Assembly: GCA_017743475.1 (NCBI GenBank)
Contig: JAGHYV010000049.1
Location: 1 to 36,691 of the forward strand
From: Roseiflexus sp.
GTDB taxonomy: Bacteria; Chloroflexota; Chloroflexia; Chloroflexales; Roseiflexaceae
Length of the DNA stretch: 36,691 bases
Direction: 5' to 3'
Part shown: positions 7,218 to 9,440 of the stretch, one piece after another
Numbering within the stretch: position 1 is the first letter of the stretch
How the letters are laid out: each line of letters begins with the position of its first letter
The notes under the pieces: generated by a model
Database searches by the model: none
Told to the model about the DNA's origin: nothing
Seen by the model: only the letters and a program-made list of their open reading frames with translations
Program-made: the position numbers and the translations under genes

Positions 7218-8579
7218 TTATGGCGTTGTTGATGTTGGTGTTAGTGTTATGGTTGGTGTCGGCGCAGGCTCAGGTGTGCCTGGCATCGCCGTTGGCTGTG
7301 TCGTGATGTCAGGTGTTGCCAGCGGTTCCGGTGTCAACGTAGGCGGCATGCGGAGCGTGACAAAAACCCGCGGCGCTGGCGGAACCAGGGTCACTCCTTC
7401 CGGCAGCGAGAATGTTGGTTCAAGTTCATACGTTCCAGGTCCTAATCCGCGAACATTGATCACGCCAAGCAATTGCGTGCCAGACAACGCTTCGAGTTGT
7501 AGCGATGATCCTGTCACAGTGACAGACACAATACCCGGACTGAGCGATGCCAGTAAGCCATCACTGATGCCAATGATCTGCACCGATGCCGGTACGGTTA
7601 CCTGAAACGGTCGGTTGATTGGCACGATTGTGACTGTCACAACTACGTCTGCTGGCTCGCCAAAGCGCAACTGGGTACCGCGCGGCGGTATGAGTGCTAC
7701 CGTTCGGGTCAGTGTTTGTGAAGCGCCAGTAATATCCACCTCCTCAGTCACAACATTCTCTGCATCATCGAGTGGTCCTGAACTGCCGGTCAGTGTCACC
7801 AGCAAAGGCGAGACTGACACACCGGCAACGACGTAGCCGCTGGCAGGAACGCCGGTGACAGAGGGCACAACTGGCACACGTTTGAGGCCAACACTCGAAA
7901 TGATCGGCACCAGTACATCGACGGTCGCCGGGTCGACGGTCACACCGGCGATTGGTTGACCGTTGGCATCGACCGGTTCGAGTGTCCGCGGCGAATTATA
8001 ATTTGCTGTCAGGCGGTCGATATCAACTCGCGCACGCACCATAGCCACTCGTTCAACGCGCCCTTGAGGTCCACGCACCGTTACCTTTGTGACAGGTTGC
8101 CCACGTGATGTGACCTGTGGTGTGCGCGCCTCGAAACCGAACGGCACGATACCGGTCGTTTCGACGGTCAGTGCCACTGTTCGGGTGATTTCCTGATCCA
8201 GGCGAATGAGCAGATACTCGGGTTCAGCACTCGCCCGCAGGCGAAGTGAGCGCGTGGTCACCACATTGACCGGTACATTATGCTCACCCGGTCCGCGCCC
8301 GGTAAGATCCACGAAGGGACGCAGATCGCTGACACGCACGTTCCGCACTGTTTCATCATCCGCCAGGACGGTAATATCGACTTCGGGACGCTGGGCGCGT
8401 GGCAGACCTTCCTTGTCGATCACAACCAGTCCGGGCGCCAGACCTTCGATATCAACCGGCACATTATCATAGGCGATCGACCGATCCGGATTCTGTGTGT
8501 AGGATACGAACACCCACAGCGTAAATGCCAGGATGAGCGCCAGCAGGAGACGTAAAGCTGGCGTATTCAGGAAATCCAC
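7218..8579 (-). CDS. cdaR: YbbR-domain membrane-anchored protein, probable cyclase regulator CdaR
   Basis: The 453-aa product has one N-terminal membrane helix (about residues 8-27) and then about four YbbR-like beta-rich repeats outside the membrane, recognisable by recurring V-V-DPxTV and VxVxG phrases. In Firmicutes, CdaR (YbbR) binds and modulates the diadenylate cyclase CdaA; the gene lies directly after cdaA here (21 bp gap). The last 40 or so residues form a proline/threonine-rich low-complexity tail (PTLTPEPLATPDITTQP), which may span the cell wall or surface layer. The start is GTG with AAGG upstream. No glmM follows, unlike the usual cdaA-cdaR-glmM order. Confidence 0.9.
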   Translation of the reverse strand: MDFLNTPALRLLLALILAFTLWVFVSYTQNPDRSIAYDNVPVDIEGLAPGLVVIDKEGLPRAQRPEVDITVLADDETVRNVRVSDLRPFVDLTGRGPGEHNVPVNVVTTRSLRLRASAEPEYLLIRLDQEITRTVALTVETTGIVPFGFEARTPQVTSRGQPVTKVTVRGPQGRVERVAMVRARVDIDRLTANYNSPRTLEPVDANGQPIAGVTVDPATVDVLVPIISSVGLKRVPVVPSVTGVPASGYVVAGVSVSPLLVTLTGSSGPLDDAENVVTEEVDITGASQTLTRTVALIPPRGTQLRFGEPADVVVTVTIVPINRPFQVTVPASVQIIGISDGLLASLSPGIVSVTVTGSSLQLEALSGTQLLGVINVRGLGPGTYELEPTFSLPEGVTLVPPAPRVFVTLRMPPTLTPEPLATPDITTQPTAMPGTPEPAPTPTITLTPTSTTP

Positions 8580-8600: not shown

Positions 8601-9440
8601 CTAGTTTTTTAGCGTCTCATCGAGTTGCACCTTGAGCAAACCTGCCAGCATGCTTCGCAGGCGTGCTTCGTTCAGATAGCTTACCATACGCCCGTCGTGC
8701 ACCAGCGAAATCGCACCGGTTTCTTCGGAAACTACCACTGCAATCGCATCAGATTGTTCGGAAATGCCTTTCGCCGCACGATGGCGTGTGCCAAGGCGCC
8801 GTGGTCCGACGATATCTTCACTAAGCGGCAGAACGACGTTCGCAGCCAGGATTCGATTGCCGCGCACAATGACTGCCATATCGTGCAGCGGCGCGTTTGG
8901 ATAAAAGATATTGAGCAGGAGCGGCACCGCGAGTCGTGCATCGAGAATGACGCCGCGATCCGCATACTCTTGTAGTCCGGTCTCACGCTCGATCACCATC
9001 AACGCGCCGATGCCTTGCTGCGAGAGTTGCTGCGCGGCGCGCGAGATACCAATCACCGTTTCAATCAACTCCGACCGGTTGGAGCGCGAGAACGGTCGTC
9101 CAAGCAAATCATTGGTGCGCCCCAGGCTTTCCAGTGCGCGACGCAACTCAGGCTGGAACAGCACCGGAATAGCCACGATCAACGCCGGTTGTATTGCATT
9201 CTCGATCAGCCAGCGGAGCGTTTCGAGTGGCAAGACCGAACTCAGTACGATCGAAATTGCGAGCAAAATGCCAAAACCGCGCAGCAACTGCACGGCACGC
9301 GTGCCGCGAATAACGCCGAGCAGCCAGTAAAAGATCAGTGCAACGATCGCAATATCAAGCAGTGCACGCGGGTCAACGAAGGGATTGAGGCGATCAGCGA
9401 GGCGACTGATCCACTCCAGGATGCTACGAATGTCGGGCAT
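8601..9440 (-). CDS. dacA: Membrane diadenylate cyclase CdaA/DacA (c-di-AMP synthase)
   Basis: The 279-aa product has about three N-terminal membrane helices (roughly 27-45, 53-72, 80-95) and a DAC domain (about 100-255) that condenses two ATP into cyclic di-AMP. ERETGLQEY (151-159), LLNIFYPNAPLHD (175-187), LGTRHRAA (216-223) and VVSEETGAIS (236-245) are clear family motifs, and the RHR triplet is intact at 219-221. The metal-binding DGA motif reads D187-M188-A189, so its glycine is replaced by methionine. The key aspartate is kept, so activity is likely but unproved. It is followed at once by cdaR. ATG 9440 has no strong Shine-Dalgarno site. Confidence 0.93.
   Translation of the reverse strand: MPDIRSILEWISRLADRLNPFVDPRALLDIAIVALIFYWLLGVIRGTRAVQLLRGFGILLAISIVLSSVLPLETLRWLIENAIQPALIVAIPVLFQPELRRALESLGRTNDLLGRPFSRSNRSELIETVIGISRAAQQLSQQGIGALMVIERETGLQEYADRGVILDARLAVPLLLNIFYPNAPLHDMAVIVRGNRILAANVVLPLSEDIVGPRRLGTRHRAAKGISEQSDAIAVVVSEETGAISLVHDGRMVSYLNEARLRSMLAGLLKVQLDETLKN

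Follow-up and report, generated by a model that had tools for sequence, protein, structure and literature searches.

Methionine in place of the DGA glycine in the CdaA diadenylate cyclase of Roseiflexus and other Chloroflexales

The diadenylate cyclase (DAC) encoded by a 36,691-nucleotide stretch of Roseiflexus DNA, which we refer to throughout as 'the window', carries the triplet Asp-Met-Ala (DMA) where Asp-Gly-Ala (DGA) is expected. DGA is cited in the literature as a conserved signature of diadenylate cyclases (passages in PMC7288161 and PMC4568413, among others). The DMA triplet is a genuine deviation from this motif, shared across the lineage and found again in other groups, in a CdaA that is otherwise normal. 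With considerable confidence, we regard the protein as an ordinary, functional, membrane-bound CdaA, the sole DAC found in its genome and encoded beside cdaR, in which residue 188 is a tolerated variant. The finding is more a correction to the DGA signature than evidence of a new mechanism. Because the glycine is replaced by methionine or leucine (M/L) across whole lineages, motif-based annotation should key on the aspartate and on GxRHRxA, and not on DGA. The M/L enzymes also provide natural material for asking what the DGA glycine does.

The gene, its product and the altered triplet

The features of the window to which we refer are as follows:

8601..9440, minus strand: cdaA, a diadenylate cyclase of the CdaA type, 279 aa (TIGR00159 equivalog, PF02457, PF19293)
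9147..9362, minus strand: CdaA N-terminal transmembrane domain, residues 27-98 (PF19293 match; helices in the model)
8688..9041, minus strand: DAC catalytic domain, residues 134-251 (PF02457 match; model alignment to 8c4o_B)
8874..8882, minus strand: codons of D187-M188-A189, DMA replacing DGA (codon reading)
8778..8786, minus strand: R219-H220-R221 of the GxRHRxA motif, intact (sequence reading)
7218..8579, minus strand: cdaR (YbbR-domain protein), the downstream neighbour of cdaA (PF07949, 91.1 bits)

The cdaA reading frame begins with ATG and runs from 9440 to 8601. Its product comprises an N-terminal membrane domain (PF19293, CdaA_N; 27.3 bits, cut-off 23.8) followed by the DAC catalytic domain (PF02457; 137.5 bits, cut-off 27), and scores 221.5 bits against TIGR00159, the curated CdaA equivalog, above the cut-off of 188.8. 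Two other DAC classes were considered for this protein and rejected: the NCBIfam model for DisA gives 33.7 bits against a cut-off of 201, and that for CdaS gives 142.5 bits against a cut-off of 225.

Residues 186-189 of the protein are H-D-M-A, encoded by CAC (H186), GAT (D187; 8880-8882), ATG (M188; 8877-8879) and GCA (A189; 8874-8876). The literal glycine of the triplet is absent, and M188 occupies its place. The first-pass annotation, which reported DMA for DGA within 8860-8900, had identified and numbered the triplet correctly, and its statement that RHR and the flanking motifs are intact agrees with what we find: R219-H220-R221 sits within GTRHRAA, and VVSEETG, which contains the SEE motif, is unaltered. 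H186 precedes D187 in the window protein, and D187 is present in all 281 aligned rows, 98 from the clade of the window and 183 others (the 98 and the 281 include the window and its own locus, and the rows are not all distinct, some contigs occurring in two collections). The annotation also described DGA as a site of metal and ATP binding, and this calls for a qualification. According to passages of a review (PMC7288161), the Asp of DGA binds ribose; a magnesium ion is coordinated by the second Glu of SEE, and so DGA is not chiefly a metal site.

An AlphaFold2 model of the protein (mean pLDDT 87.9) aligns with the ATP-bound Listeria CdaA structure 8c4o_B at a Z score of 27.1 and an rmsd of 1.2, with 151 of 151 residues matched to model residues 121-271. 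In this register, M188 corresponds to Listeria Gly172. Ten active-site residues are given for Listeria CdaA in the review passages, and the motif glycine is not among them. By the 8c4o_B alignment, all ten are retained in the window protein, and each is retained in 87 to 98 of the 98 clade rows. The pocket would be expected to tolerate M188 because, although it adjoins the ribose-binding Asp, position 188 is not one of the listed active-site residues. The window protein has V203 at the position of Listeria Tyr187, an adenine-stacking residue called crucial for catalysis in a passage of PMC10167629. Valine is the commonest residue at 203 in Chloroflexota outside the M/L clades, too (44/67).

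Distribution of methionine and leucine at position 188

Residue 188 is M in 39 and L in one of 40 genomes read from the same genus, family or order, Chloroflexales, with M recurring in other assemblies at each of these three ranks; in the same class outside Chloroflexales it is G (14/14 genomes read). A methionine conserved across the lineage, which had been proposed as something to look for in Chloroflexota alignments, is thus borne out for this order. The search of the phylum gave a match in 304 of 400 Chloroflexota genomes, and 110 of these were read, largely the highest-ranking ones, with the result that nearer relatives are over-represented. M188 is kept in 20 of 21 Chloroflexales representatives. 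Its persistence alone is no proof of special constraint, because 54 of the 118 DAC-domain positions are conserved at least as well among these representatives. D187, R219 and H220 occur in all 98 clade rows, and S238, E239 and E240 in 97, the last row having a gap. A Chloroflexales-type CdaA occurs, too, on a contig filed under Candidatus Gracilibacteria (L128, JAAUTF010000163.1); this contig is probably misbinned.

Named genomes of 84,980 species, each species represented once, were scanned for the pattern N-x-P-L-H-D-[M or L]-A. This returned 95 loci, every one of which encodes a DAC protein. Of these, 76 have M at the position and the other 19 have L; GTRHR or GSRHR is present in 87, and SRHQ or ARHR in 8. 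To fit the pattern, a locus needs N-x-P-L-H-D ahead of the residue and, for Leu, a codon that ends in TG; Planctomycetota rows such as GSALHDM fall outside it, and M or L may occur in further contexts or phyla. Named genomes with the motif belong to Roseiflexus, Chloroflexus, Oscillochloris, Chloroploca, Viridilinea and Herpetosiphon, and the loci include others from Dehalococcoidia/Tepidiforma and from Phycisphaerae-like Planctomycetota. Because the scan gave these named relatives, and a tree groups the window among such loci, we take the order of the window to be Chloroflexales. A search of Planctomycetota with an M-type query gave a match in 179 of 199 genomes. Seventy loci were read from the upper and middle parts of the list (L211, L217-L285), plus 5 chosen for having L. 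Of these 75, 58 have G at residue 188, 9 have L and 8 have M; genomes picked for M or L account for six of the M/L rows.

The tree was built by a quick method, with SH-aLRT support only, from 156 representatives obtained by clustering at 80% identity and with the pocket columns removed. On it, the division between M/L and all other residues implies at least four changes, and well-supported branches force three of these. Rows with M or L fall into four groups: Chloroflexales, a Tepidiforma-like clade, one small Chloroflexota family (L) and a Phycisphaerae-like clade. There are no G rows inside these four clades on the tree, many of their rows being from the scan that selected M/L. Outside them, G occurs in 120 of 125 rows, and the remainder have A, S or R; the Chloroflexota rows outside the clades comprise 62 with G, 3 with A, 1 with S and 1 with R, out of 67. 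Plasmid-borne DACs from Bacillota, Bacteroidota and Cyanobacteriota have G in all 12 that were read, of 30 records found. The first-pass description of this position as 'nearly always glycine' stands, then, outside the four M/L clades, and fails inside them. Viral contigs were searched for related loci, and none encoded a relative. The abstracts and passages that made up the literature searched describe no naturally occurring M or L at the DGA glycine, although the Listeria CdaA structure papers may do so.

Gene context, probable activity and possible role of residue 188

In the window, cdaA is followed by cdaR and then by gatC. In all 12 members of the order examined, a YbbR gene lies beside the DAC gene, within about 1 kb downstream and on the same strand. 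Each of these genomes has one full-length DAC (11 with M, 1 with L), and all 12 exceed the DAC domain cut-off. One of them (G034) has a second, partial match at C68:2782-2946 (28.4 bits, model positions 62-115) in a 445-residue frame. The 7TMR-HDED domain of PgpH-type phosphodiesterases is present in all 12, elsewhere than cdaA, and the PgpH-type gene of the window's own genome shows the complete architecture of 7TMR-HDED, 7TM and HD. The DAC model finds one match only in this genome, and a second DAC that might free cdaA to decay was rejected on these grounds. Of 20 relatives, three carry the c-di-AMP riboswitch RF00379, two of them from the genus of the window and one from its family; the window's own genome gives no match. 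The three riboswitches, in L112, L113 and L114 (1501-1634), score 75.7-81.9 bits and lie 5' of a gene of the SulP sulfate permease family (PF00916 in L112 and L113; L114 by similar translation).

Published mutants bear on the role of the glycine. In passages of PMC3328451, Mycobacterium tuberculosis DacA/DisA with the substitution G73A has wild-type ATP binding and retains DAC activity, a qualitative result; changing RHR to AAA does not leave ATP binding and cyclase activity intact, and changing DGA to AAL or AAA yields inclusion bodies. Activity is lost when DGA is changed to AAA in CdaS (passage in PMC4568413), and also in the D110A/G111A mutant of M. bovis CdaM (passage in PMC13022847). As described in these passages, the DisA AAL and AAA, CdaS AAA and CdaM D110A/G111A mutants all remove the Asp as well. 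We do not treat the DGA glycine as defining, because the 12 order members pass the DAC cut-off with M or L in its place and because DisA G73A is active by that account. The literature passages searched include no assay of any DMA enzyme.

The enzyme of the window is, then, very probably functional, to judge from its family, its active-site residues and its gene context, which together suggest both activity and tolerance of M188. Family membership and the model lead us to expect that, as in other CdaA enzymes, its DAC domains would dimerize head to head and make c-di-AMP from two molecules of ATP. Roseiflexus probably has intact c-di-AMP signalling. The change from G to M at 188 was most likely fixed before Chloroflexales radiated, M or L having been kept since. 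The pocket may accommodate a long, flexible, hydrophobic side chain at this position, probably with small adjustments nearby, and any effect of residue 188 on rate is likely to be quantitative. A strong effect is spoken against because DisA G73A is active in the published account, because the ten active-site residues are kept, and because this is a sole DAC accompanied by cdaR and a PgpH-type gene. A quantitative effect on rate, metal choice or regulation is conceivable because Ala is far smaller than Met, and because DisA is not CdaA. Several points count against our preferred explanation: V203 in place of Tyr187, the lack of a riboswitch match in the window's own genome, the unexceptional conservation of M188 within the order, and the loss of activity or of soluble protein in whole-motif DGA mutants elsewhere, as given in the passages above.

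Alternatively, M or L might have been selected, in Chloroflexales and the other clades, for tuning the enzyme by a change in its rate, its preference for metals, the release of product or the geometry of the dimer. This reading extends to whole lineages the first-pass suggestion that M188 could affect rate, metal choice or regulation by CdaR. We consider tuning unlikely, but it has something to recommend it: the repeated gain or loss of M/L in the tree, the want of G rows within the four clades, and changes elsewhere in the pocket. All 31 rows with L188 carry S or A at position 218, which is the Thr of GTRHR, whereas T218 is seen in 118 of the 125 rows with M188 and in 109 of the 120 with G188. 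Every one of the 37 Phycisphaerae-like rows has both V202 and A207; 36 have Q or E at 203, 33 have S or A at 218, and 5 have Q221. These co-varying residues suggest local adjustment around position 188. The counts represent non-independent events, and some rows are duplicated; only three independent contrasts lie on supported branches, and for this reason a test of the coupling between L188 and S/A218 cannot reach significance. Against tuning, too, T218 is retained by 95 of the 98 rows from Chloroflexales and by all 19 that are Tepidiforma-like, DisA G73A is reported to be active, and about half of the positions in the DAC domain match or exceed M188 in conservation within the order. One further coupling, of M/L to the absence of T183, was tried and rejected: N-T-P-L-H-D-[M/L] gave 0 matches, yet T183 is present in 8 of 17 Planctomycetota M/L rows. 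Separately, four Phycisphaerae-like loci (L115, L126, L130 and L204) have GSRHQAA, with Gln for the second Arg of RHR, together with L at the DGA glycine.

A bolder proposal, which strikes us as improbable, is that a large, hydrophobic side chain following the ribose-binding Asp marks a natural DAC subtype that has arisen several times with a co-adapted pocket (at 218, and at 202, 203 and 207 in the Phycisphaerae-like clade). The side chain might then help to close the pocket in place of the missing Tyr187, shifting turnover, metal use or nucleotide selectivity.

It is very improbable that the protein is no longer active and serves instead as a scaffold or an ATP-binding protein. A signature residue is altered, and the motif-wide changes to DGA described in PMC4568413 and PMC13022847 abolish activity in other DACs. 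However, the protein is the sole cyclase of its genome and is encoded beside its regulator, and the genome has a phosphodiesterase gene dedicated to this pathway; all this speaks against inactivity, as do the arrangement common to all 12 order genomes, the near-invariance of D187, R219, H220 and the SEE residues in the clade rows and the persistence of c-di-AMP riboswitches in relatives. Finally, the idea of a sequencing or assembly error at one codon, to which the origin of the window in a 206-contig draft might lend some colour, is refuted by relatives from other assemblies, M recurring in 39 of the 40 order members and in 76 of the 95 scanned loci, the rest having L as the pattern demands, and its probability is negligible.

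Comparison with known cyclases

Among characterized structures, the CdaA/DacA proteins of Listeria, Bacillus and Staphylococcus (8c4o, 6hvl, 8ogk and 6gyw) share the DAC fold with the window model (Z 25.8-27.1). They have in common with it the His before the motif, the Asp, GTRHRAA and SEE; the window protein has, in addition, the CdaA_N membrane domain and a YbbR neighbour. They differ from it in the residues at Gly172 (M188) and Tyr187 (V203), and are 42-43% identical to it over the domain. The G73A mutant of M. tuberculosis DisA (passages in PMC3328451) is altered at the same motif glycine and retains activity, but it belongs to the DisA class, and its substitution is an engineered Ala rather than a natural Met. 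The CdaA enzymes of Chloroflexota outside the M/L clades belong to the same family as the window protein and are about 43-60% identical to it, but mostly have Gly at 188. The CdaA enzymes of Tepidiforma/Dehalococcoidia and of the Phycisphaerae-like group have M or L at this very position, and they form clades apart from that of the window on the tree.
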